A DNA stretch of 36,253 bases from Clostridia bacterium (lineage in GTDB: Bacteria; Bacillota; Sulfobacillia; SLMV01), in the NCBI GenBank assembly GCA_003566675.1, contig PXCI01000142.1:1-36253 (forward strand), given 5' to 3'. Within the stretch, counting starts at the first letter, position 1; each line of letters begins with the position of its first letter. Position numbers and translations under genes: made by a program. Below, piece after piece: positions 5,694 through 36,222 of the stretch. The notes under the pieces were generated by a model, which did not search any database, had not been told where the DNA came from, and saw nothing but the letters and a program-made list of their open reading frames with translations.

Positions 5694-7894
5694 TGCAAAC
5701 CACCCTCTCTGGCTTCAACAAGATCCGCAACCGGTATGTCGATTCGCCTCTGTCCGGTGGCAACGCGAAGGAAACTGCCCCCCACCTCACCGATGACGTC
5801 AAGTGGGCATCCGAGCTCCCGGGACCGCTCCAAGAGGGCCTCCAGGGACTCCGGCGCGGCGCTCACCAGGTACCGCGGCCCACCCTCACCGAACAGAATC
5901 TCATCCGCTCGTTCTCCGGCCTGCAATTCGATCTTAGCACCAAGCTGGGACGGCGAAAGACACGCCGCCTCGGCGAGAGCCACTGCGAGACCACCATCGG
6001 ATACATCATGGGCTGATCGGATCCATCCGCGGGCAATGCCCACCCGACACGCCTTACCCGCGACCCGTTCCGCCGCGAAGTCGACGGTGGGCACGGGCCC
6101 AGCCACCTTCCCGGCGACGATGTTCAGGTACTGGGATCCGCCCAGGGATCCCGTTCCCCCACCAAGGAGAAGAACCGCATCGCCGTCCGCTGCAAACCCG
6201 GGAGGGACGCATCGCGAGACATCCTCCAGGAGGCCGACCATGCCAATGACGGGCGTGGGATAGATCTCCCGGCCTCCCGTCTCGTTATAGAAGCTGACAT
6301 TGCCGCCGGTGACCGGCGTACCGAGGGCCTGGCAGGCCTCACCCATCCCTGCAACCACTTCGGCGAAGCGATACATGACCTCGGGCTTCTCCGGGCTGGC
6401 AAAATTCAGGCAGTTGGTCACCGCCAGGGGACGGGCGCCGACAGCAGAGAGATTTCGATAACTCTCGGCGACCACGTTCATGGCCCCCCTCCTGGGATCA
6501 AGGTGACAGAGCATGCCGTTTCCATCGACTGCGACGGCGATTCCCTGCCCAGAACCCCTGACTCGCAAAACAGCCGCATCTGCACCTGGGTTCATCGCGG
6601 TGTTGATCCCGACCATGTGATCGTATTGCTCATAGACTTCCCTTCGGGAACAGAGATTGGGATGGGAGAGCATCTGCAGAAGGACACGATTGAGATCCTG
6701 GGGTTCGGGGATCTCCCCGGCGTGGAAACCCGGATCCGGTGCAGGGGAGCGCATCGGTCGATCATAGGCGGGAGCGCCCTCCGTCAGGCTCAGAGCGGGT
6801 ATGGAGGCGACCTCTGTGCCGTCCTCCAGGATCCTCAGCTGGCCGTCCGACGTCACCTCACCGATCCGCGCGGCCTCCAGTTCCCATCTGTCGAAAATAT
6901 CCTCCACTTCACCTTCCCTGCCACGGTGGGCGATGACCAGCATCCTTTCCTGGGACTCGCTGAGCATCACCTCGTAGGGCGTCATTCCCTCCTCGCGCAG
7001 GGGCACCCGGGTCACATCGATCTCCATGCCCATCCCGGCACGGGAGGCCGTCTCTGAGGCGGCCGATGTCAGGCCCGCGGCCCCCAGATCGTTGACGCCC
7101 ACCACGGCATCACTGCCCGTCAGCTGCATGCAGGCCTCGATCAGCAGTTTCTCGCGAAAGGGATCTCCCACCTGCACGGCGGGCCTCATGGACTCCGTTT
7201 CCTCATCAAACTCCCTGGAGGCCAACAGGCTCGCCCCGTGGATGCCGTCCCTGCCCGTGCGGGCTCCGACGATGAAAACGGGGTTGCCCGCACCCGAGGC
7301 CCGTCCCCTCACGAGACGATCCTTCGGCGCCAGGCCCAGGCACATCACGTTCACCAGGGGATTCTCGCGATAGGCCTCGTCAAAATAGATCTCGCCCCCC
7401 ACGGTGGGGACGCCGACGCAGTTGCCGTAGAAGCTGATCCCCGACACCACGCCTTCAAATAGATAACGGGTTCGGGGATCCCCGGGATCACCAAAACGCA
7501 AAGAGTCCAGCAGGGCGATGGGGCGCGCTCCCACGGTGAAGATGTCCCGCAGGATCCCTCCCACCCCGGTGGCGGCCCCCTGGACCGGTTCAATGGCACT
7601 GGGGTGGTTGTGGGACTCGATCCGGAAGGCCAGGGCCAACCCCTCCCCCAGGTCAATCACCCCAGCATTCTCCCCGGGGCCCTGCAGCACATAGGGGGCC
7701 TCGGTGGGCAGCTGCTCAAGGTGCCGCCGGGAGCTCTTGTAGCTGCAGTGCTCCGACCACATCAACCCGTAAAGACCCAGTTCCAGGGGATTGGGCCGCC
7801 GGTCGAGGTCCTCACAGACCCGATGATATTCACTCCGGCTGAGACCCACGTCCTCCCAGGGGGTCGTGATTCGCTCATCCTCGCCTGATTGCAC
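5690..7894 (-). CDS. purL: FGAM synthetase large (synthetase) subunit, small-PurL type
   Basis: ATP-dependent amidation of FGAR to FGAM, working as a complex with the PurQ glutaminase and PurS. At 734 residues it is the 'small' PurL of Gram-positive and archaeal type, not the ~1300-residue fused enzyme, which agrees with separate purQ and purS genes here. Visible motifs are MWSEHCSYKSSR, FRIESHNHPSAIEP, GAATGVGGILRD, NDLGAAGL, LSESQERML and VTGGNVSFYNE. The start is GTG 7894 with GGAGG nine bases upstream inside purQ, giving a 20-base overlap. It ends in an ATGA overlap with purF. Confidence 0.98.
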   Translation of the reverse strand: MQSGEDERITTPWEDVGLSRSEYHRVCEDLDRRPNPLELGLYGLMWSEHCSYKSSRRHLEQLPTEAPYVLQGPGENAGVIDLGEGLALAFRIESHNHPSAIEPVQGAATGVGGILRDIFTVGARPIALLDSLRFGDPGDPRTRYLFEGVVSGISFYGNCVGVPTVGGEIYFDEAYRENPLVNVMCLGLAPKDRLVRGRASGAGNPVFIVGARTGRDGIHGASLLASREFDEETESMRPAVQVGDPFREKLLIEACMQLTGSDAVVGVNDLGAAGLTSAASETASRAGMGMEIDVTRVPLREEGMTPYEVMLSESQERMLVIAHRGREGEVEDIFDRWELEAARIGEVTSDGQLRILEDGTEVASIPALSLTEGAPAYDRPMRSPAPDPGFHAGEIPEPQDLNRVLLQMLSHPNLCSRREVYEQYDHMVGINTAMNPGADAAVLRVRGSGQGIAVAVDGNGMLCHLDPRRGAMNVVAESYRNLSAVGARPLAVTNCLNFASPEKPEVMYRFAEVVAGMGEACQALGTPVTGGNVSFYNETGGREIYPTPVIGMVGLLEDVSRCVPPGFAADGDAVLLLGGGTGSLGGSQYLNIVAGKVAGPVPTVDFAAERVAGKACRVGIARGWIRSAHDVSDGGLAVALAEAACLSPSQLGAKIELQAGERADEILFGEGGPRYLVSAAPESLEALLERSRELGCPLDVIGEVGGSFLRVATGQRRIDIPVADLVEAREGGLQ

Positions 7895-12644: not shown

Positions 12645-12825
12645 ATGCCAGATAGCGAAGACAGGATTTCAGGGGCGCAAAAGGGAATCATCGCGGCAGC
12701 GACGCAGCAGTTCGCAGATCAGGGCTTCAGGGGAGCCCACAGTTGCCGACATTGCCCGGGGAGCCGGTCTTTCCGAGGGAGGTAAGGACGAATACTTTCC
12801 CCGCACACCCACCCTGTTCACGTGA
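12645..12825 (+). pseudogene. TetR-family regulator remnant, frameshifted
   Basis: From ATG 12645 (GGAG eight bases upstream) the sequence reads MPDSEDRISGAQKGIIAAAT-QQFADQGFRGA. A one-base frame change near GGAGCCCACAG then continues as TVADIARGAGLSEGGKDEYFPRTPTLFT. Joined, this is the canonical TetR DNA-binding domain (helix 1, T-V-x-D-I-A-x-x-A-G-L-S-E-G, Y-F, L-F). A normal TetR has ~190-200 residues; only about 60 remain before the stop at 12825. The group II intron remnant begins immediately after. The ORF-track entry 12340..12825 is the second frame with a meaningless N-terminus. Confidence 0.75.
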
Positions 12826-12827
12826 CG

Positions 12828-13040
12828 AACCTCGGCCAATGTAGGGCTTCGTCTTGTCTTGCAGACTCGCCCAGCCCTTCACGCCTCGTCCAGGGTTCGT
12901 GCTCCTCGGGTCACGGTTTTGCCTCCGGCTTCCTTCAGATCCCGCGTCACCGCGGGCACCCTTGTCTTCAGCTAGTGGTTCTACGTGGCCACTCCCCCCA
13001 GCGGACTTTCACCCCTAGCATTCGCCCATGCCGGGCACAC
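12828..13040 (-). mobile_element. Group II intron fragment (5' end, domain I part)
   Basis: Read on the minus strand from 13040, the sequence starts GTGTGCCCGGCATGGGCG, fitting the GUGYG 5' end of group II introns. It continues with blocks typical of bacterial group II domain I: GGGGTGAAAGTCC, GAACCACTAGC, AAGACAAGGGTG, GATCTGAAGGAAGC and GGCAAA. There is no reverse transcriptase ORF, no domain V and no room for them, so it is a 5' fragment of about 210 nt. Its 3' side abuts the TetR remnant. Recognition is from remembered intron sequence; the exact 3' limit is uncertain. Confidence 0.65.
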
Positions 13041-24655: not shown

Positions 24656-25906
24656 TCAAAGAATCCTCCGTCTGTGTAGTAAATCTTGCACGGTCATATT
24701 CCTCGCCATGCCCGAGGGCAGGGCCGCACCCACGTAGAAAACGGCGGCCGCAACCAGGGCAGCAATGATAAAGGAGCGGGGGGTCATCACGTAGGGAACC
24801 AGGGTATACCGGATCAACAAGGTGACCACGATCCACGTTCCCACGGTGCCCGCGATGATGCCCAGAAGGGCGGTCAAAAAGCCCTCCTGAAGGAGCATCA
24901 TCCGCACTTCGTCGTTGAACGTGCCCAGGGCTTTGAAAACCCCCAAATCCCTCTGCCTTTCCAAAAATGCCAGCAGCAAAACGTTCAGAACGCCCAGGGC
25001 ACAAAAGAGCAGGATCAGGATGATCACAATCCTGCCAGAGGAAAAGACCCCGGTCAGGAGTCCCCCGGCCATCTGCTGCCCGTGGATCCGGCTGATCATC
25101 GTCGCGCCGGGCAAAAAACCCCTCGCCTTCCTTGAAGCTTCCCCGGGTGCCCCCGAGCTTAACAGGATGAAGTTGCCCCCGGACTCCCCGGCAAGGGGTG
25201 GAAGGTGGACCCCGGGCAACCGAATCATTGGGTCACCGAGAAAGGGGTCATCGGTGGCAAAGAGCCCGCAGACCTGGTAGGTGGCGCGGTGGGACATCCC
25301 CCCCGAATCGAGCCACTCCACGTTGAAATCATGCCCCACTTCCAGGCCCACACTCCGGGCTGCTTCCAGCGGGAGCAGGATCTGCCCCTCGCCGGTGGGG
25401 AGGCTCCCCTCCTCGAGCTGAAGCATCGCAGCGAACCCCGGGCCTGCCCCTTCCTCGAAGGCACCATCTTCCAGCCCGACCAGGTAATGGTGACCCAGGG
25501 GACTATACACCGGGACCCGATGGCCCGAGGCAAAGGCCCTCACCTCGGGGATGAAGTTCAGCCGGTGAATCTGATCTGTCGACCAGCCCGACTCCCGGAA
25601 AGCAACCACATCAGCAATCATGGGGATCTCAGCCACCTGGCCGCGGAAGCTCAGCTCTGTTGCACTGAAATACGAATCAGACAGGACAAACACCAGTACG
25701 GTCAGGGCAACGCACAGCGCCATGATCGCCGCCCGCCACTTCCTCCGCCGAATGCTCCTGGCCGAATAGGGGAACATGAGAGTCCAGGTGTTCTTCACAA
25801 ATCGGAAGGTGCGGGCGTTCAGATTCGCCAGCAACCGGGCCACAGGCGACAAAATAATCTCCAGGGAGGTCTGGATCCCCTTGTCGTCCCCTCGTCCGGA
25901 AGCCAC
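24656..25906 (-). CDS. ABC transporter permease, FtsX/MacB-like (B2)
   Basis: An N-terminal membrane anchor (AAIMALCVALTVLVFVLSD) is followed by a ~200-residue extracytoplasmic domain (containing VPVYSPLGHHYLVGLEDGAF). The FtsX core has three helices near the C-terminus (IVIILILLFCALGVLNVLLL; FLTALLGIIAGTVGTWIVV; FIIAALVAAAVFYVGAAL). The coupling segment ERQRDLGVFKALGTFNDEV contacts the ATPase. The track starts at 25981, but GTG 25906 (VASGRGDDKG) one base after the ATPase stop, with GGAGG six bases upstream, is preferred. That gives 416 residues. Substrate unknown; MacB/LolC-type transporters usually act on periplasmic, lipoprotein, peptide or drug substrates. Confidence 0.85.
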   Translation of the reverse strand: MASGRGDDKGIQTSLEIILSPVARLLANLNARTFRFVKNTWTLMFPYSARSIRRRKWRAAIMALCVALTVLVFVLSDSYFSATELSFRGQVAEIPMIADVVAFRESGWSTDQIHRLNFIPEVRAFASGHRVPVYSPLGHHYLVGLEDGAFEEGAGPGFAAMLQLEEGSLPTGEGQILLPLEAARSVGLEVGHDFNVEWLDSGGMSHRATYQVCGLFATDDPFLGDPMIRLPGVHLPPLAGESGGNFILLSSGAPGEASRKARGFLPGATMISRIHGQQMAGGLLTGVFSSGRIVIILILLFCALGVLNVLLLAFLERQRDLGVFKALGTFNDEVRMMLLQEGFLTALLGIIAGTVGTWIVVTLLIRYTLVPYVMTPRSFIIAALVAAAVFYVGAALPSGMARNMTVQDLLHRRRIL

Positions 25907-25907
25907 C

Positions 25908-26597
25908 TCACACCTCCTCCCTCTCGATGGCCCCGTCGCGCATGTAGACAATCCGCGAGGCATAGTTCCTGGCAGCGTCATCGTGGGAGACCACCACGAA
26001 GGTCTGCCCGCTCTCCTCGTTCAGGCGGCGAAATAGATCCATGACCTCTGCACTGCTGTGGGTGTCCAGGTTCCCGGTGGGCTCGTCGGCCAGTACCACT
26101 TCAGGCTCATTGGCCAGGGCCCTCGCCACGGCAACCCGCTGCTGCTCTCCTCCCGACAGCTCATGGGGGTAATGGTCCATGCGGTCACTGAGCCCCACGG
26201 ATTCCAACAGGTCCTGGCATCTTCTCTGTGCCTCTCGGACATCCAGGCCGATCAGCCGCATGGGAAGTTCAACATTCTCCTTCGCCGTCAGGTCTGGCAG
26301 CAGATTGAAGAACTGAAAGACAAAACCCACTTTCGTCCGCCGCATGCGGGCGAGGCTGTTCTCATTGAGGTCGCTGTACCGTTGGTCCTGCAGCATCACC
26401 TCGCCGAAGGTCGGCCGGTCCAGCCCTCCCAGTAGATTCAGCAGGGTACTCTTGCCGCAACCCGAGGGACCGGTCAGAAGCACAAACTCTCCCGGATAGA
26501 TGCGCATGGAAATACCGTCGACGGCCCTCACCCCCGCACCGACCAGAAAGATCTTGGTGAGATCCGTCGCAGTGACAATGGCAGCCTTCTCAGACAT
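25908..26597 (-). CDS. ABC transporter ATP-binding protein, MacB/LolD type (1)
   Basis: Complete nucleotide-binding domain in 229 residues: Walker A GPSGCGKST, Q-loop VFQFFNLLP, ABC signature ELSGGEQQRVAVARAL, Walker B VVLADEPTGNLD, H-loop VVVSHD. The 'N-L-D-T' D-loop and short length are typical of the LolD/MacB/FtsE group that pairs with FtsX-type permeases. The start is ATG 26597, with GGAGGTG eight bases upstream, overlapping the previous permease by eight bases. Confidence 0.96.
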   Translation of the reverse strand: MSEKAAIVTATDLTKIFLVGAGVRAVDGISMRIYPGEFVLLTGPSGCGKSTLLNLLGGLDRPTFGEVMLQDQRYSDLNENSLARMRRTKVGFVFQFFNLLPDLTAKENVELPMRLIGLDVREAQRRCQDLLESVGLSDRMDHYPHELSGGEQQRVAVARALANEPEVVLADEPTGNLDTHSSAEVMDLFRRLNEESGQTFVVVSHDDAARNYASRIVYMRDGAIEREEV

Positions 26598-28083
26598 CCC
26601 TCAACACCTCCATGGTGGTCTGCTTCAGCGCCAGGTAGGCCGGCAGCAGGCCGAACAACCCCGCCACCAGAACCGACGCCCCCACGACCATGAATCCCGT
26701 CCTCAGGGTCATGATCCCAACCTCGGCCACACTCACCGCCGACAGGGCATAAACCCCCGTCACCATCAGTCGGACGGCGACGAAGCCCAGGGTCGCCCCG
26801 ATCATCGACATCAGAACCGCTTCAATCAGAATCAAACCCATCACCTGGCTACTGGCCATGCCCACCGCCTTGAGAATGGCCATCTCCTTCCGTCGCTGCA
26901 TGACAAGGACGTACATATCTCCGACCAGCAAAAGGCCGGCGACAAGGAAAATTGCCACAACCAGCAGGGTCGACACGTCGGCGGGCACGGCGCTCTGTCC
27001 CCTCTGCTGTCGACCGATGATGGCCTGTTCAGGGACCGTCCGCACCGTCGTCCCCGGCAGCTGCTGCTGCAAGCTGGCAGCGATCTCCTTGGCCCGGAAC
27101 ATATCGTCCAGAACCACGTTCAACTGATAGGCACGCGGCGCCTGTCCCGGGGGAGCGATCGTCTCCCAGATCTTCTGCCATGTCGCCGCAGGGATGAAGA
27201 GATCTTCCGTCTCGACGTAGTGCTGGACCATGATCATGGTACCCGTGCCCCCGCCGGGACCGACCTCGAGCACGTAGCCCCCGGTTTCCGGATCCCTCAG
27301 GGGCCTGACACTGGTGGGAAAAGCAAAGAGCCCCACCACCTGCAGATCAAATTCCGTGATGTCGTCCCAGTTCCAGAGGGGATATCCCTCGGCGTCGTAT
27401 CCAGCCAGGGCGGGAACCTCGAGGGTACGGACATCCCCCACCTGTGGAACAGGATATCCGGGCCTGATTCCCTCCTCGGGGGGAAAGGCCCCGCGGTTGC
27501 CCTGGGCCAGGGCAACCAGGCTGCCCTCATCCTCAGGCTCCAGCCACCGCCCCCGGGCCAGGTAAGTTGAGACGTCCCACGTCTCATCGAGATCCGGATC
27601 CCGGGCCCTCAGGGGCGCAGGGTACCTCGCCTGTTGCCCCCCGATACCCGGGATCACCACCCTCGCTGGGAGTTTCAGCAGGGGCTCAACCGCAGCGACA
27701 CCCGCAGGAAGACCATCGCCGAGAGGGTCATCCTCTGCCGCGAAAAACAGGGTCTCACCGGAGGGGGAGATCAATCCCTCCTCGTAGATTCGCGGGTGGA
27801 AGAGCAGCAGGTCGCTCAGTCCATAATCACCGCGCAGGCCCCACTCCCAGGGAGTATCGCCGGCAGCCTGGGCATCCTCCGCGCCCACGCCGAGACGCCC
27901 GGGGTAGATCACGATGTCTGCCCCCATCAGTGTCCTGTGCTGCATCCACGACACCTCCGGATACCCTCCTCCGAGGGATAGAGAAGCCGTCATCACCCCA
28001 GCGGCAATCGCGACGCCGATCATCCCCAGAAGGTTCTTCGTCCAGTTGCGCCGAACGTTTCTGACGGCCAATTGCCAGAGCAT
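26590..28083 (-). CDS. ABC transporter permease, FtsX/MacB-like (A2)
   Basis: An N-terminal helix (KNLLGMIGVAIAAGVMTASLSLGGG), a large extracytoplasmic MacB-PCD-like domain of ~300 residues and three C-terminal FtsX helices (TLLVVAIFLVAGLLLVGDMY; LILIEAVLMSMIGATLGFVAV; GFMVVGASVLVAGLFGLLPAY). The coupling segment is RRKEMAILKAVGMASSQV. The stretch RTLMGADIVIYPGRLGV also occurs, modified, in the permease at 30129, so the two are paralogues. The track start is GTG 28092; ATG 28083 with GAGG eight bases upstream looks better. Confidence 0.9.
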   Translation of the reverse strand: MLWQLAVRNVRRNWTKNLLGMIGVAIAAGVMTASLSLGGGYPEVSWMQHRTLMGADIVIYPGRLGVGAEDAQAAGDTPWEWGLRGDYGLSDLLLFHPRIYEEGLISPSGETLFFAAEDDPLGDGLPAGVAAVEPLLKLPARVVIPGIGGQQARYPAPLRARDPDLDETWDVSTYLARGRWLEPEDEGSLVALAQGNRGAFPPEEGIRPGYPVPQVGDVRTLEVPALAGYDAEGYPLWNWDDITEFDLQVVGLFAFPTSVRPLRDPETGGYVLEVGPGGGTGTMIMVQHYVETEDLFIPAATWQKIWETIAPPGQAPRAYQLNVVLDDMFRAKEIAASLQQQLPGTTVRTVPEQAIIGRQQRGQSAVPADVSTLLVVAIFLVAGLLLVGDMYVLVMQRRKEMAILKAVGMASSQVMGLILIEAVLMSMIGATLGFVAVRLMVTGVYALSAVSVAEVGIMTLRTGFMVVGASVLVAGLFGLLPAYLALKQTTMEVLRDV

Positions 28084-28088
28084 TGCGT

Positions 28089-28826
28089 TCACCTCGCAGA
28101 GAAGTCGTCTTGCCCGTATTGTCGCACCAATTCACCGTCTTCCAGCTGGATCACCCGGGACGACCGCTCTGCCACGCCCGGGTCGTGCGTGACAAGCACC
28201 AGGGTCTGCCCCAGTCGTTTGTTCAGATCCTCAAGAGCTGTCAAAATATCGTCGCTGGTCCTCTGGTCCAGATTGCCCGTAGGCTCATCTGCCAGGATCA
28301 CTGCGGGCTCATTCGCCATGGCCCGGGCGATCGCCACCCGCTGCTGTTCACCCCCCGAGAGCTGTCGGGGAAAATGATCACCGCGATGCCCCAGCCCCAC
28401 CATCTCCAGCAGGAAATCGGCCCGCTCCTCCCGTTCGGGTCGACTCATCTGGGTATTGAACCCGAGGGGGAACCGGATGTTCTCCCATGCCGTAAGATGA
28501 TCGACCAGGTAGAAGCGCTGGAACACAAAACCCACGTCGAAGCGTCTCAACTCGGCCAGCTCCCTGTTGCGCATCAGGCCGATATCCCGCCCGCGAAGGA
28601 GGACGTCGCCCTTCGTGGGAGGCTCCAGGGCCCCCATCAGGGACAGTAGGGTCGTCTTGCCAGAACCCGAGGGGCCCATGATCGATGCAAACTCTCCCTC
28701 CACGATGCTCAGGTTGACGCCGCGAACGGCGGCAACCACTCCGGCGCTGGTCTGATACTCCTTGTAGACATTCTGAGTCTGCAGGACAGCAGGTGCCTCA
28801 ACAGACCTACCCTCTGCTGGGCTCAT
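28089..28826 (-). CDS. ABC transporter ATP-binding protein, MacB/LolD type (2)
   Basis: 245 residues with Walker A GPSGSGKTT, Q-loop VFQRFYLVD, signature LSGGEQQRVAIARAMANE, Walker B VILADEPTGNLD and H-loop LVTHDPG. It resembles the ATPase at 25908 in every motif and length, indicating duplication within the operon. It overlaps the upstream permease by ATGA and has GGAGGG seven bases before its ATG. Confidence 0.96.
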   Translation of the reverse strand: MSPAEGRSVEAPAVLQTQNVYKEYQTSAGVVAAVRGVNLSIVEGEFASIMGPSGSGKTTLLSLMGALEPPTKGDVLLRGRDIGLMRNRELAELRRFDVGFVFQRFYLVDHLTAWENIRFPLGFNTQMSRPEREERADFLLEMVGLGHRGDHFPRQLSGGEQQRVAIARAMANEPAVILADEPTGNLDQRTSDDILTALEDLNKRLGQTLVLVTHDPGVAERSSRVIQLEDGELVRQYGQDDFSAR

Positions 28827-30136
28827 CCAGATCCCTCCTTCGTTCCTACTGGCTCAGGCCAGATGTTCACCAGGGTCCACCAGTCGAAGTCCGTATCCCC
28901 CCGAAGATGGGAGCTCAGATCCCGGGAGCCGCTCAGAATCCACGCAACCCGGCCGCCCCAGAGAACGAGTGCACCCTGGGCAATGGCCCAGAGAATCATG
29001 GTGAGGACGGGCAGGGTCGGCGTCGGCCCATTCGCCGGGGCCAGGGCGAAAATGCCCAGGAGAACCACGCCCCCCAGGACGGTGCCTGCAAGGGAATCCC
29101 AGATCAGCTGAGTCCGGAACATCCTGCCGATGTCCTCCGGGCTCATACCCACCACCGCATAGATCCCAATGATCACCTGTCGATCCAGAACGATCACGAG
29201 CACTGTCAGCGTCACGGCGATGCCGACCACGAGGAACATCAAACCCACCAGGCCGCTGACGCTCGCAGAGCTGGTTCGCCCCAGGTGGGCCATCCGATCC
29301 CGCACGGCACCCCGGTACCAGAAGGTCGGTCCCACCCGGTTGATGAAGGGCGAAGGCAAACCCCCAAAAGAGGCCAGGTATCGGTTGTTCTCGGGAGAAC
29401 CCGCCGATGCCGACAAGTCGAAGGCGTAAGCTGGAGCCCGGACCCGGGGGAGACGATCCCGCAGATCCCTGACCAGGTCCTCCACCGACCCCCTGGGTGA
29501 ATGCCACAACCAGAGGGCATTGGCCCGGGGCATGAAAGCTAGGGCGGCCATCTCCCCCACATCGCCCAGAATGAACTCCGAAAAGACGTCCTCCGATCCA
29601 AAGACACCGCTCACGGTGAACTCTGCGGGACGGTAGTCGCCCGTTTCCGGGTGAAGATAACCGAAGGAAAAGGGCTCCCCCACTTCCAGAGCCAGCCTCT
29701 GCATAAGCGCCTCTGTGACCGCCACCTCGGAAACGCCACTGCCCGGAATCCTGCCCTCGGTGAAATCGATGCCGGTCCTGAACCGCACGTCATCAAGATC
29801 GACGCCCCAGGTCTCATGGGTGCCAGCGGCGGAGGTCATGTAGGTGATCACCCCGAACATGTTGTGCCTCGGCTGATGACGCACTGTCTCGATCGCACGG
29901 CCCAGATCCAGGGGTGTGCTCAGCCTCGTCGTCCAGTCAGGATAATAGACCAGCAGGGGAAAGGGCAGATCCAGGGGCTCGGTCTGGTGCGCTCCCAACC
30001 CTGCATCCTCTGACCAGATGCTGTACAGCCCATACATCACCAGGGATAGGGCAATGATAGCGATAATGATGGTGTGAGCCGTTCGGTTTGCCTTCCACTC
30101 CCGCCACACCAGGCTGAAAGACCCCTGATCACCCAT
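28823..30136 (-). CDS. ABC transporter permease, FtsX-like (B1)
   Basis: 437 residues: an N-terminal helix (TIIIAIIALSLVMYGLYSIW), an extracytoplasmic domain of ~230 residues (with FRTGIDFTEGRIPGSGVSEV), and C-terminal helices (GLVGLMFLVVGIAVTLTVLV; WDSLAGTVLGGVVLLGIFAL; LTMILWAIAQGALVLWGGRV). The coupling segment IGIYAVVGMSPEDIGRM corresponds to the 'G-V-F-K-A-L-G' segment of the downstream permeases but is more divergent. It overlaps the upstream permease by eight bases; ATG 30136 has GAGGTG nine bases upstream. Confidence 0.85.
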   Translation of the reverse strand: MGDQGSFSLVWREWKANRTAHTIIIAIIALSLVMYGLYSIWSEDAGLGAHQTEPLDLPFPLLVYYPDWTTRLSTPLDLGRAIETVRHQPRHNMFGVITYMTSAAGTHETWGVDLDDVRFRTGIDFTEGRIPGSGVSEVAVTEALMQRLALEVGEPFSFGYLHPETGDYRPAEFTVSGVFGSEDVFSEFILGDVGEMAALAFMPRANALWLWHSPRGSVEDLVRDLRDRLPRVRAPAYAFDLSASAGSPENNRYLASFGGLPSPFINRVGPTFWYRGAVRDRMAHLGRTSSASVSGLVGLMFLVVGIAVTLTVLVIVLDRQVIIGIYAVVGMSPEDIGRMFRTQLIWDSLAGTVLGGVVLLGIFALAPANGPTPTLPVLTMILWAIAQGALVLWGGRVAWILSGSRDLSSHLRGDTDFDWWTLVNIWPEPVGTKEGSG

Positions 30137-31703
30137 TGCGCATCACCTCTCCCGGCGAAAGCTTCATCATGCGGAGAAAGGGAATCGCCGCCACGAGCAA
30201 GCTCACGCAGAATACCACCCCCGCAACCAGCCCCAATCCACGGAGCAGATTCATTGCGATCGCCCACGGCCCCATGGCGTTGGACAGCCACAGGTGGATC
30301 AACATGGGACTGGCGAAAAGGTAACCCGCAAGGGTCCCAAGGGCCGAGATGACCAGGACCTCCGTAGTCGAAGAAATCAGCAGCTGCCAGTTGTGGCTGC
30401 CCAATGCCTTTAGGGTCGCCAGCTGCTTGCTGCGGGTGATCGTCAACACGTACAGGTTGCCCAGGTAAAGAAGTCCAGCCAGCAAAACCGCTGTGACCAG
30501 GAGCACTGCATCGAACCATCCTGGCGCCGACAGAAGAACCCTGTCCGAGGCGAGAAGATCGCGATAGCCGGCGCTGATGTCCTCCGGCGGTATGGCAGTC
30601 GTGACTATGGGCAGGTGATCCGACAGGGACACCATTTCTCCGGTCGTCATAACCGTGGCCCCCGGCGTCGCCTCCCGGATCCGGTCGGCCACCACGTTGA
30701 CCCGGGAGAAATCGGATACCACGACAAGATACTCCGTGACCTCGGCCCACGGGCCGCCCCCGGACTGGGCAAGGAGCCCGCCGAAAGTTTCCTCGCTAAC
30801 CCAGATCTCTGGCAGCGACAAATGCAGGGGCTCGTCAATGTAGCGGCCAGGAGGAGGTGGATCATCATCTGCAAACCGCACGATGGAACGAAGGCCCGCC
30901 GGGGTCAGGGCACTGCCGAGCCAACTGATGCGCCCGGCGGTGAACTCCAGGGTCCCAACCACGTCGAGGGAAACTTCAAGTCCCTGCACGGCATCTCCCT
31001 CCCCAGGCAGCACAAGGTGGACAGGATCTCCCGGGGCCACCGATGCATCCGCTCGAAGTGACGGCCCCCCCTGGGCCATCACGGCCCGGACACCATCCCA
31101 GCGATCATAGCCGTAGGTTTCAGCCTCGGGGCCACCGCCACGGATGATGTAGTTCTCAAGCACGCACACCGGTTCTCCCAGGTCATCTGGACCCAGGACG
31201 CGCCCCTGGACCAGCGCAGATGACAGGCCATAATGTTCATCGACGAGGGGATCCCTGGCCCGGATCTGCACCCACCAGGTGTAATCACCGCTGATCATCC
31301 TCGCAGGAATCGTCCGGTAAGGCGTCACGTGAAGGACACCCTCCACACCACGAATCTCCTCCGTCAAATCCCGAGACACGGATTCCTGGCCCATGATACC
31401 GTCCCGGACAATCCCGGGGAAGAAGTAAGCGGTAAGGCCGGGATTGTCGGGGGATCGTCGAATCATCTCCCATGCTCCCCCGGGCGTAGGCGATGAGGTA
31501 CCGGGAAGCCCCAGGGCCTCCGGAAGGACCACAATATCTCCCCCCAGGGCCGTCCGGGTCTCAAAATGCGCACCACCAGGCTCCCCCCCTGCCATGATCA
31601 GTGCCGAGACCAATACCACCGTGGCCAGCGCCACACTGATCATCGCCAGGGCGCTGCGCTGCAGGTTGCGAATCGCTGCCAACCATCCAAGGGTGAAAAA
31701 CAC
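30129..31703 (-). CDS. ABC transporter permease, FtsX/MacB-like (A1), first gene of the string
   Basis: 524 residues: an N-terminal helix (LAMISVALATVVLVSALIMAGG), an extracytoplasmic domain (with RTALGGDIVVLPEALGL) and three FtsX helices, e.g. AVLLVTAVLLAGLLYLGNLY and TEVLVISALGTLAGYLF. The coupling segment is RSKQLATLKALGSHNW. It is paralogous to the permease at 26590. The start is GTG 31703 with GGGAGG five bases upstream. Six ABC genes follow each other as A1-B1-ATPase2-A2-ATPase1-B2. Confidence 0.9.
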   Translation of the reverse strand: MFFTLGWLAAIRNLQRSALAMISVALATVVLVSALIMAGGEPGGAHFETRTALGGDIVVLPEALGLPGTSSPTPGGAWEMIRRSPDNPGLTAYFFPGIVRDGIMGQESVSRDLTEEIRGVEGVLHVTPYRTIPARMISGDYTWWVQIRARDPLVDEHYGLSSALVQGRVLGPDDLGEPVCVLENYIIRGGGPEAETYGYDRWDGVRAVMAQGGPSLRADASVAPGDPVHLVLPGEGDAVQGLEVSLDVVGTLEFTAGRISWLGSALTPAGLRSIVRFADDDPPPPGRYIDEPLHLSLPEIWVSEETFGGLLAQSGGGPWAEVTEYLVVVSDFSRVNVVADRIREATPGATVMTTGEMVSLSDHLPIVTTAIPPEDISAGYRDLLASDRVLLSAPGWFDAVLLVTAVLLAGLLYLGNLYVLTITRSKQLATLKALGSHNWQLLISSTTEVLVISALGTLAGYLFASPMLIHLWLSNAMGPWAIAMNLLRGLGLVAGVVFCVSLLVAAIPFLRMMKLSPGEVMRNG

Positions 31704-32198: not shown

Positions 32199-33608
32199 AT
32201 GTCTGCATTGACCCGTCAGTGCATTGCAAAGGAAGAATCCACCTTGCCTCACAAAGATGGTTTTGCCGAGATGGTAGGCGCCCGCATACGGGAGCTGCGA
32301 AGACAGGCAGGTATGACGCAACGCGACCTTGCCGGAGAGGACCTGAGTCCTGGCTTTCTGAGCCAGGTTGAGCGGGGTCTGACCGCCCCATCTCTGCACT
32401 CTCTTCACATCATCGCGGAAAACCTTGGCGTCAGCACATCAACCCTCATGCCCGATAGCCCCCTCGGGGAGGATGATTGCCGGCCAACAGTCGAAATTCT
32501 GCTGTCTCTTGCTGAATCCCAGCGCCTTATTGGCCAGATTGAGTCAGCCCTGGCTTCTGTGCAGCAGGCCCGCCGGGAACTGGAAGAGGAAACAACCGAT
32601 CGCAATCAGCTCAGGGCCGCCGCCTGCCTGCAGTCCGGGTTGGCTCATCTCGAAAGAAAGGCCAGCGATCTGGCCTTTTCGGATCTCACCGCGGCAGCGG
32701 AGCGGTTTGAAGCGACACCGGATCCAGAGGGCATCCTGAAATGCCTGCTGGGTATGGCAGAGATGCACTTCCAGCGCGAAAATCCCCTCCTGGCAATTCA
32801 GTTTTTTGATACTGTGATCCACCGAGCTGAGGAACTGGAAGAAGGACAACAAGATGTCTACCGGATGCTCGCCGAATGGGGACTCGGCCGAGCCTATCGG
32901 GCCCTCAAAGAGACAGAGACTGCAAGCGAATTGCTAGGCGAAGCCCTGACGCGCGCGAACGTGCAGACGGATATCACCCGGCAGGTGATGTACTCTGTGG
33001 AAATGGCCCAACAGAATCTGGCCGAAGGAAACTACGACGAGGCCCGGTATCACGCTAGCCGAGCAAGGACACTGTCAACGCTCAGCTTTACCCAGAAGGC
33101 CGAGGCTGAGATCCTGCACACCTCTGGTCTCGTCTGGGAAGATGCCGGAGAAAGAGACCGGGCCCTATCCTCTTTGTCTGATGCCGCGCAAATTGCCTCT
33201 GAGCTTGGCGACTCCATCCTTTTAGCCCAGATCCTACTCGCCAGGGGCACAATCCATCTCAGGGAAGACGACCTCTCTGAGGCCTCGGCGATCACCGCTG
33301 AGGCCCTGGCAATCATCGACGCCACATCCGAGCCGGTCCTGCGAGGACAGGCAGCCCTGCTCGCGGGGAAAGTGGCCTTTTCCAGGGATCAGCACTGCAG
33401 GGCCCAGACCCTGCTCACAGAAGCCGAGAGATGTTTCCGTGGGGCTGGGACGCTATCCATGCTGGCTCAAACCCAGGCCGAGCTGGGAAAGGTCTGTTTG
33501 GCCACGGGACAACGCGATGAGGCCCTTCACCGCTTCCGCAGGGCCAGCGACCTGTTCTCCCGGATTTCCCCGGGGGGCAGCCCGCCTCACCCACGGACCC
33601 ATCCCTGA
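32199..33608 (+). CDS. XRE-type HTH regulator with TPR array
   Basis: The N-terminal XRE/Cro helix-turn-helix (about residues 25-80) reads VGARIRELRRQAGMTQRDLAGEDLSPGFLSQVERGLTAPSL. The remaining ~380 residues are helical TPR-like repeats (e.g. AAACLQSGLAHLERKASDLAFSDL, LLGMAEMHFQRENPLLAIQFF, GRAYRALKETETASELLGEAL, ILLARGTIHLREDDLSEAS, LAQTQAELGKVCLATGQRDEALHRF). This is the layout of peptide-sensing RNPP-type regulators and of general HTH-TPR regulators; the ligand is unknown. ATG 32199 has a weak Shine-Dalgarno. TTG 32244 (giving MPHKDGFAEM) has AAGGAAG eight bases upstream and may be the real start. It is divergent from the ABC operon. Confidence 0.9.
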   Translation: MSALTRQCIAKEESTLPHKDGFAEMVGARIRELRRQAGMTQRDLAGEDLSPGFLSQVERGLTAPSLHSLHIIAENLGVSTSTLMPDSPLGEDDCRPTVEILLSLAESQRLIGQIESALASVQQARRELEEETTDRNQLRAAACLQSGLAHLERKASDLAFSDLTAAAERFEATPDPEGILKCLLGMAEMHFQRENPLLAIQFFDTVIHRAEELEEGQQDVYRMLAEWGLGRAYRALKETETASELLGEALTRANVQTDITRQVMYSVEMAQQNLAEGNYDEARYHASRARTLSTLSFTQKAEAEILHTSGLVWEDAGERDRALSSLSDAAQIASELGDSILLAQILLARGTIHLREDDLSEASAITAEALAIIDATSEPVLRGQAALLAGKVAFSRDQHCRAQTLLTEAERCFRGAGTLSMLAQTQAELGKVCLATGQRDEALHRFRRASDLFSRISPGGSPPHPRTHP

Positions 33609-34172: not shown

Positions 34173-34586
34173 CTATTGGTCGTCTTTGCCCAGGCGCGAA
34201 AGAAGCTGCTTTGCCAGGGAATCAAGATCCGCCCCCTGGGCCAGTTGCAACAGCTGGGCAATGTCGGGGCTTGGTGGCCGTTTAGAGCCCGTATCTGTGA
34301 GGGGCCGATCGATCACCCCGGCCCGCGTAAGCTCAGAGTATTCCTCTGGGCTGAGCAGCAACACCTCCAGCAGCTTGTTGATATACAGGGCTGAAGAATT
34401 CAACTTATCCGACAGAAGCATCATATCATCGGCGATGGTTTTCATGGCCGCTAGAGGCTTGACACTTCTTGGGTTCGACCCGCCCATCGCAGCACCCAGG
34501 TCTGCCATACTACGACCTGATGGCATCGCCTTTTCTGAACTGTCATTTGCCTCGTCTTTCGGCCTGTTCTTCTCCTCCTCCGTCAC
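34173..34586 (-). CDS. Helical protein, paralogue A of a tandem pair, function unknown
   Basis: 137 residues, no signal peptide or membrane segment. The acidic, disordered-looking N-terminus (TEEEKNRPKDEANDSSEKAM) precedes a helical core LAAMKTIADDMMLLSDKLN-SSALYINKLLEVLLL and a C-terminal helix DLDSLAKQLLSRLG. Core and tail are shared with the gene at 34950 (ADDMM-x-LS-x-x-L and LAK-x-LL-x-RLG). The start is GTG 34586. The leader GGGAGCGAGGTGATTGTGTG is nearly the same as that of its paralogue. A strong terminator follows. The family is not recognised. Confidence 0.75.
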   Translation of the reverse strand: MTEEEKNRPKDEANDSSEKAMPSGRSMADLGAAMGGSNPRSVKPLAAMKTIADDMMLLSDKLNSSALYINKLLEVLLLSPEEYSELTRAGVIDRPLTDTGSKRPPSPDIAQLLQLAQGADLDSLAKQLLSRLGKDDQ

Positions 34587-34949
34587 ACAATCACCTCGCT
34601 CCCCCCTACGACACCGTCAACTACCTCATTTATACCTGTATGCAGAAGATGCGATCGCTGCAACTCCTGAATTTCAAATGCAACAAGGATTCTGCCTGAC
34701 CCGCGGGCCACCCATGTACTGGCTTCAACCGTCGCATCGGGTGAGGTGAGTGCAAGTACTGCGAGGTAATGCAGCCCGGACTTGCCGAGTTGCTTCTGTT
34801 GCAATACCCGGATGCTCAGCAGCTACGTCTGCATCCAGGTTGGATCTCTGCGAAGACCAGGCTGATTTCGGGTGAAGAAGGTGCTCCCCTACTCTCCTGC
34901 CATTTGCTTTCCCATAGCGCAATCAACCCACCTCGACTGCTCCCGGTCT
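34587..34949. other. Intergenic region between the two helical paralogues
   Basis: About 360 bases. The part next to 34586 holds the conserved leader, with GCATACAGGTATAAATGAG (about 34633-34651 on the minus strand), also found before the second paralogue. It is a candidate promoter or leader element. No gene and no clear terminator for the 34950 gene were seen. Confidence 0.5.
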
Positions 34950-35303
34950 TCATTCGTTCATTCCCAGGCGCCGGAGCAGCGCCAATTTGGCCAGATCCTC
35001 GAATCGGACACCATCACCCGCCTGCGAGGATTCCTTGCTGCCAGGGTTAGACATCGCCTGTGAGCCCGGGTCAGAAAATCCCTGCCCCCCTGTCAAATTT
35101 ACGACCGCCAGGATATTCCTCATCTGTGTAGCAGCTTGTGCCAGCTGTTCAGACAGGTGCATCATATCGTCAGCCACGGCCTTCAATCTGTGAGTCGTGA
35201 GCTCACGAGACCCTGGATCGCTCGCACCAGTTATGGAACCGATCTCAGAATCTGATCGTCCTGCTCTGTGCTCGACTGGATCTCCCTGCAAATACTCAGG
35301 CAC
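34950..35303 (-). CDS. Helical protein, paralogue B of a tandem pair, function unknown
   Basis: The core HRLKAVADDMMHLSEQLAQAATQMRNILAVV and the tail FEDLAKLALLRRLG align with the gene at 34173. The central part is Gly-Ser-rich (GGQGFSDPGSQAMSNPGSKE). The ORF track begins at 35360, but GTG 35303 (VPEYLQGDPVEH), seven bases after GAGG, matches the start context of the paralogue and gives 117 residues. It is divergent from the hydrophobic repeat gene at 35479, with about 175 bases between the starts. No known domain recognised. Confidence 0.72.
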   Translation of the reverse strand: MPEYLQGDPVEHRAGRSDSEIGSITGASDPGSRELTTHRLKAVADDMMHLSEQLAQAATQMRNILAVVNLTGGQGFSDPGSQAMSNPGSKESSQAGDGVRFEDLAKLALLRRLGMNE

Positions 35304-35397
35304 ATAATCACCTCGCTCCCACCCAAAGGCATGTCGACTCTCATTAGTACCTGTATGCAAAAAGAGAAACTCTTGCTCCCAGGTGACAGCAAAATAG

Positions 35398-35427
35398 TTA
35401 ACATCTTCACGTGCGAGTGTATATTAT
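35398..35427 (+). promoter_or_regulatory. Predicted promoter of the first hydrophobic repeat gene
   Basis: TTAACA (-35), 18 bases, TATTAT (-10). The same GTATTATGTA block occurs before the second copy (35957-35962), 51-52 bases before each start codon, where the -35 match is poor. A sporulation sigma factor cannot be excluded. Confidence 0.5.
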
Positions 35428-35435
35428 GTACTGAA

Positions 35436-35464
35436 CCGAGGGCTCAGACCCCGAAATCCCTCGG
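35436..35464 (+). promoter_or_regulatory. Leader hairpin touching the Shine-Dalgarno of the first repeat gene
   Basis: CCGAGGG, 15 bases, CCCTCGG: a perfect 7-bp stem whose 3' arm overlaps the GGGGAGGTG ribosome-binding site. It could limit translation until melted. The equivalent stem is much weaker in the second copy. Confidence 0.5.
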
Positions 35465-35478
35465 GGAGGTGAAGATGA

Positions 35479-35628
35479 ATGCCTTTGCTCGGTACAGGTA
35501 GAACTGGTATAGACGAGCTGCTCCTGTTTCTCCTGCTGGCAGGAGGAGTGGGCCGCGACCGCACCGGCATCGATGGACTGCTTCTGTTCATCCTGCTCTC
35601 CGGCATGACAGGCCGTGGTCTCTGGTAA
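35479..35628 (+). CDS. Short hydrophobic repeat protein, copy 1 (too short for the ORF track)
   Basis: 49 residues starting MPLLGTGRTGIDELLLFLLL, with a second unit DRTGIDGLLLFILLSG. Two ~20-residue units follow G-R-T-G-I-D-x-L-L-L-F-x-L-L-x-G. Each unit alternates a Gly-rich turn with a short hydrophobic stretch, too short for an ordinary membrane helix. The start ATG 35479 lies nine bases after GGAGG, the same spacing as in copy 2; an ATG at 35475 is in another frame and gives only 8 codons. Small Leu-Phe-Gly-rich proteins of this style are common among spore formers, some of them spore-associated, but a spore role here is inference. Confidence 0.75.
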   Translation: MPLLGTGRTGIDELLLFLLLAGGVGRDRTGIDGLLLFILLSGMTGRGLW

Positions 35629-35680: not shown

Positions 35681-36012
35681 CCCCCTTGACGAAAGTGATA
35701 CATTCCGCCACCCCAGACCTACGTTCAGGGACTACATCATCCGGATAAAGGAACACATAAACGGACATAAACGGGGGTGAGCAGAGGACAGCCCCGATGA
35801 TCTCCTCTCCTGCGTACTGCCCTGCTGTTATCAGCCATGGACCTGCAGCGGCCAGGACTGTGCTCTCAGACCGGCCACGGCCTGAGGCAGTAACTGAGCC
35901 AACCAATGGCAGAACCTACTGACCAACCTCTACGAACACATTTATGTCGCCGTGTGTATTATGTAGTGAGTCTGAGGGCCAGACCCACAGATCTTCCGGG
36001 AGGTGAGAATTA
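35681..36012 (+). other. Intergenic region between repeat genes
   Basis: About 330 bases without a recognisable gene. It contains a tandem direct repeat ACATAAACGG twice (35755-35774). At its right end it carries the duplicated leader of copy 2: GTGTATTATGTA, TCTGAGGGCCAGACCC and GGGAGGTGA. The 86-residue minus-strand ORF here lacks a convincing ribosome-binding site. Confidence 0.45.
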
Positions 36013-36222
36013 ATGCCTTTGTTCGACACAGCTGGCACCGGTCGTATGGATCAACTGCTTCTGTTTCTCGTGCTGGCAGGAGGAGTCGGCGGCGTCGGTC
36101 GCACCGGCATCGAGGAACTTCTGCTGTTCCCCCTGCTTTCTGGCGACATCGGTCGCACCGGCATCGATGAGCTGCTTCTGTTCATCCTGCTCACCGGCAG
36201 CCTTGGCAGAGGCCACACCTAG
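36013..36222 (+). CDS. Short hydrophobic repeat protein, copy 2
   Basis: 69 residues, starting MPLFDTAGTGRMDQLLLFLV. Three units are visible: GTGRMDQLLLFLVLAGG, GRTGIEELLLFPLLSG and GRTGIDELLLFILLTG. It is homologous to copy 1 with one more unit, so gene size varies by whole repeat units. ATG 36013 has GGGAGGTG nine bases upstream. The sequence after the stop (TCTAGCCGCCGTGGGGAG) repeats the region after copy 1, so the whole gene unit is duplicated and the series may continue beyond the window. The minus-strand 73-residue ORF over the same bases is a shadow. Confidence 0.78.
   Translation: MPLFDTAGTGRMDQLLLFLVLAGGVGGVGRTGIEELLLFPLLSGDIGRTGIDELLLFILLTGSLGRGHT

Follow-up and report, generated by a model that had tools for sequence, protein, structure and literature searches.

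Near the end of a contig from an uncultured Clostridia bacterium, two small protein families, one helical and one hydrophobic, are encoded back to back on opposite strands. This arrangement raises the question of what the two families do and whether they belong to one dedicated system, for which the initial annotation had offered a spore-surface assembly or a peptide-regulated trait as examples. The window, that is the whole stretch of 36,253 nucleotides that was analysed, is a complete contig (C96) of a MAG of 3.39 Mb in 365 contigs (G000). Judging from the sequences and their distribution, we assign a probability of about 0.6 to the reading that both families are lineage-specific endospore proteins of the coat or outer layer, made by the mother cell. 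Apart from this locus, a match to a Group II intron domain was detected at 12787-12956 on the minus strand of the window (Rfam RF02001, 131 bits).

The helical family comprises paralogue A (34173-34586, minus strand; 137 aa, acidic with a net charge of -5) and paralogue B (34950-35303, minus strand; 117 aa), a diverged copy of A; both have a GTG start. Local alignment of A with B gave a score of 111 versus 29.9 +/- 4.8 for 2000 shuffles (maximum 51; z = 16.8), and a genome-wide search with A as lone query recovered B (E = 2.9e-5). A and B are true paralogues. They share the cores ADDMMLLSDKL and ADDMMHLSEQL and the tails RLGKDDQ and RLGMNE, as had been seen before. The leaders of both genes, previously described as almost identical, do have two blocks in common, a GCATACAGGTA box and a GGGAGCGAGGTGATT ribosome-binding (Shine-Dalgarno) stretch, but the DNA between these blocks has diverged (upstream region of A: 34587-34648; of B: 35304-35362; both minus strand). 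The GCATACAGGTA box recurs upstream of the A orthologues, and the GCATA box before A and B resembles one before sigK in these genomes; a search for a clear -35 upstream of A and B found none. The profile of A had no match in PDB. The predicted structure of A showed one confident helix (residues 43-76) and low confidence elsewhere (pTM 0.27).

The hydrophobic family starts with H1 (35479-35628, plus strand), which encodes 49 aa with two GRTGID-LLLF-LLAGG repeats. Its ATG lies exactly 175 bases from the start of the divergent paralogue B, and this distance, like the positions of A, B and H1, had been given correctly. H2 (36013-36222, plus strand; 69 aa, hydrophobic, three repeats) is a tandem duplicate of H1 at a spacing of 534 bases, upstream regions included, and has its own promoter-like site; the initial annotation had missed H2. 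The initial observation holds, with the paralogues A and B facing tandem H genes. As the contig ends 31 bases past H2, further H genes may be missing. The predicted structure of H1, of moderate confidence (pLDDT 65.8), contains two helices, residues 9-23 and 30-44, both shorter than the usual membrane span. The models of A and H1 would be consistent with a structural role of these proteins, which is not proof of one. Searches with A, B and H sequences in Pfam, NCBIfam and PHROGs revealed no family above cut-off, in agreement with the earlier description of both families as being of unknown function. No intrinsic terminators above chance were detected in a scan of the regions after H genes, and literature searches brought up no clear precedent for small, hydrophobic spore proteins built of repeats like these.

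For the comparison within the family, eight genomes from five genera, all incomplete, were examined; the same eight are also all the genomes covered from the order. Whole-genome searches detected A as a single match per genome, with one orthologue each in G004, G005 and G006 (54, 56 and 46% identity to A across the three), whereas B was seen in the genome of the window only. The relatives with A are the 'Clostridia bacterium' MAGs B1Sed10_227R1, T1Sed10_160 and B1Sed10_244R1, and the B1Sed10 and T1Sed datasets come from high-salinity soda-lake sediment (PMC6146748). Wherever A is present, which is in four genomes, it is divergent from H genes, and the order H genes, A, HTH-TPR gene, FtsX/ABC genes is kept in these four genomes from three genera. 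The run of H genes facing A comprises four genes in G005, five in G006 and at least three in G004. One H gene of G004 (near L010 8850) has a promoter and a ribosome-binding site with no ATG, GTG or TTG at the expected place, so that it may start elsewhere. For A and H pairs, dN was below dS wherever dS could be estimated, the estimates being rough for the short H genes; for A of G005 and G006, where synonymous changes have reached saturation, the difference is 58% at third positions versus 17% at the first two. The low dN and the excess at third positions indicate protein-level constraint on the A and H genes.

The initial annotation had asked whether the two families co-occur across genomes. 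The answer is mixed. A was never found without H; H, however, also occurs away from A in two genomes: G004 carries three tandem copies on C194, a single one on C99 and another with a broken frame on C178, and G005 has one copy on C88. Since A matches once per genome, these H copies have no A alongside, and the H family is dispersed, the cluster next to A being the main one. The C178 copy is broken between its two repeats (L074, about 6058-6108) and is either a pseudogene or an assembly error.

A, H and the HTH-TPR gene are present in four of the eight genomes. SpoIVA was found above its curated cut-off in exactly these four, which also have matches to the sigma-K model for sporulation sigma factors; the match in the genome of the window lies below the sigma-K cut-off and may represent sigma-E. 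The other four lack A, H, the HTH-TPR gene, SpoIVA and the sporulation sigmas. This split has an exact probability of 1/70 before allowing for relatedness, in a set of genomes that are related and incomplete. A search of 146 further genomes of the class, taken irrespective of spore formation, gave no convincing match to A or H. Two matches there, to A in G112 (E = 0.0099) and to H within a 409-aa frame in G081 (E = 0.0035), were taken as chance.

Most H genes are preceded by an individual promoter-like site of the form AC-N16/17-CATATTATGTA. In the window, these sites are TAAC-N17-TATATTATGTA for H1 (35399-35430, plus strand; exact pattern match 35401-35430) and ACACAT...GTGTATTATGTA for H2 (35936-35965, plus strand; exact pattern match 35938-35965). 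In 12 of 13 aligned H upstream regions, a (C)ATATTATGTA-like block with invariant TATTATGTA lies 16-17 bases after a -35-like block that is rich in A(C) and mostly reads T(A/C)AC; the remaining one (L009 10649) has a degenerate box. A (G)GGAGGTG ribosome-binding site lies downstream of the promoter block. Between promoter and ribosome-binding site, many H genes display a GAGGGC...GACCC stretch (e.g. window 35438-35453), which may form a small hairpin in the 5' region or reflect shared descent.

A search for ACAT-N13-18-TATTATGTA across the eight genomes gave 12 exact matches, every one in the four sporulating genomes and 11 directly before H genes, while the reversed pattern, used as control, gave 0 matches in the same genomes. 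As the pattern was drawn from H genes, their recovery is by construction; the informative part is that almost nothing besides H genes matched, and part of the likeness among the H promoters is shared descent of duplicated genes. The twelfth match (L075, on C45 of G004) has no H gene after it and lies in DNA that looks AT-richer, possibly as contamination or chance. In Clostridioides difficile, the -10 regarded as canonical for mother-cell sigma factors is CATATTAT, and sigma-K has AC as its -35 (PMC3789822). By sequence, the H site AC-N16/17-CATATTATGTA appears to fit this mother-cell (sigma-K-type) consensus, as defined in C. difficile. A reading of the H promoter as a weak sigma-A site, TTAACA-N16/18-TATTAT, is also possible; the third -35 base in the aligned H sites is never the G of TTGACA.

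In all three relatives, the next gene beyond the H genes is YsxE-like, with GuaB and MurC after it in G004 and G005; this YsxE-like gene was not seen in the genome of the window itself. In two relatives it matched TIGR02904 (E = 1.5e-10 and 6e-8), and the gene of the third is homologous to these; the scores of 32-41 bits are far under the cut-off of 263.6. YsxE and CotS are bacterial spore kinases (TIGR02904; PMC2860764), and the divergent homologue at this locus is a neighbour of the H genes, neither A nor H. Together with the presence of spoIVA and sporulation sigma factors and the mother-cell-type promoters before H, this neighbour supports the spore-related guess.

On the other side of A lies the HTH-TPR regulator (32199-33608, plus strand), a conserved neighbour. 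It had been placed about 2 kb upstream, which holds for the distance of its start from A; the gene is, however, convergent with A, and 564 bases separate the ends of the two genes. Back to back with the HTH-TPR gene are FtsX-like permeases with ABC ATPases, in two sets (24656-31703, minus strand), which adjoin it in the three relatives as well. In the relatives, the HTH-TPR gene is also directly upstream of a subtilase. No subtilase remnant was found between the HTH-TPR gene and A in the window; the large S8 subtilase orthologue of this genome is on contig C24 (L044 5705-8557), and the 9.4 kb around it contain no A or H gene. Given this arrangement, the HTH-TPR gene is likely tied to the FtsX/ABC genes, and in relatives to the subtilase, rather than to A and H. 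NprR and PlcR are regulators of the RRNPP type, which the HTH-TPR gene resembles in its N-terminal HTH, its C-terminal TPR and its protease neighbour in relatives. The protein matched HTH_3 and TPR_12 above cut-off, all its matches being generic HTH or TPR ones, but its matches to PDB sequences span the HTH alone and not the TPR part of solved RRNPP receptors. On unsystematic inspection, no gene for a partner signalling peptide was noticed. Nothing in support of a peptide-regulated trait was found; the HTH-TPR gene has generic matches and probably goes with the FtsX/ABC and subtilase genes.

The same neighbours could nevertheless suggest that H encodes secreted peptides, bacteriocin-like or for signalling, which the subtilase would process, FtsX/ABC export and the HTH-TPR protein regulate; in three genomes, the genes for the subtilase, FtsX/ABC and the HTH-TPR protein lie no more than a few kb apart. 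We consider this unlikely: no leader or double-glycine cleavage motif was recognised in H by eye, the subtilase is on a separate contig in the genome of the window, H copies elsewhere are without these genes in the stretches read, and the HTH-TPR gene is set apart from H. Still less probable are toxins of the type I toxin-antitoxin style, with A unrelated to their control. Ldr and Ibs are type I toxin repeats composed of tandem small hydrophobic ORFs, and H resembles them in that its proteins are short and hydrophobic and its genes recur in tandem, at about 530 bases per unit and with individual promoters; the broken copy on C178 would also suit such genes. Yet H proteins are two-helix repeat proteins with two or three hydrophobic stretches and not one membrane helix, they are limited to sporulating genomes with a promoter of apparent mother-cell type, and A always adjoins an H cluster as a conserved companion gene. 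No Rfam antisense family was detected at the locus, by a search that is blind to novel antisense RNAs.

A third explanation accepts sporulation and separates the families: A and H would both be sporulation genes with independent functions and an inherited adjacency. This is a sub-case of the spore reading, with which its probability overlaps, and we regard it as a possible but doubtful account. The neighbourhood is syntenic throughout, with GuaB and MurC close by in two relatives, and the adjacency of A and H alone is therefore weak evidence; moreover, H occurs elsewhere without A and the upstream boxes of A and H differ. Against it, A has not been seen without H, and the head-to-head arrangement is kept even as the subtilase and the count of H genes vary.

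The link of the A/H module to spores is well supported, while the coat location of the proteins and the partnership of A and H are inferred. According to the spore reading, the mother cell would produce the H proteins (43-69 aa) in many copies during sporulation, under sigma-K, perhaps sigma-E. Each H protein would form two or three short Leu/Phe-rich helices with charged residues at their borders. By packing at or within the outer membrane of the forespore, or between proteins of the coat, the H proteins would give the outer layers of the spore a hydrophobic component. A, acidic and helical, might bind H as assembly partner or scaffold, in this genome together with the diverged B. YjcZ and other tiny TM sporulation proteins are small lineage-specific spore coat proteins, very short, hydrophobic and multi-copy. 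H resembles them in these features and in its tie to sporulation, but differs by its internal repeat with charged borders and by having no Pfam or NCBIfam match. More speculatively, and with a rather low probability, H could be a new spore building block whose short hydrophobic helix repeats with charged borders self-assemble into a water-repellent layer, evolved in a haloalkaliphilic lineage, with A/B as dedicated chaperone or scaffold.

To our knowledge, hardly any work has been done on spore coats beyond Bacillus and Clostridium. If the spore reading is true, the locus would contribute a pair of new protein families, as well as a promoter that can be recognised and that marks genes expressed late in the mother cell of a Firmicute lineage from soda lakes. 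It would also yield a specific candidate for a hydrophobic layer of the spore.
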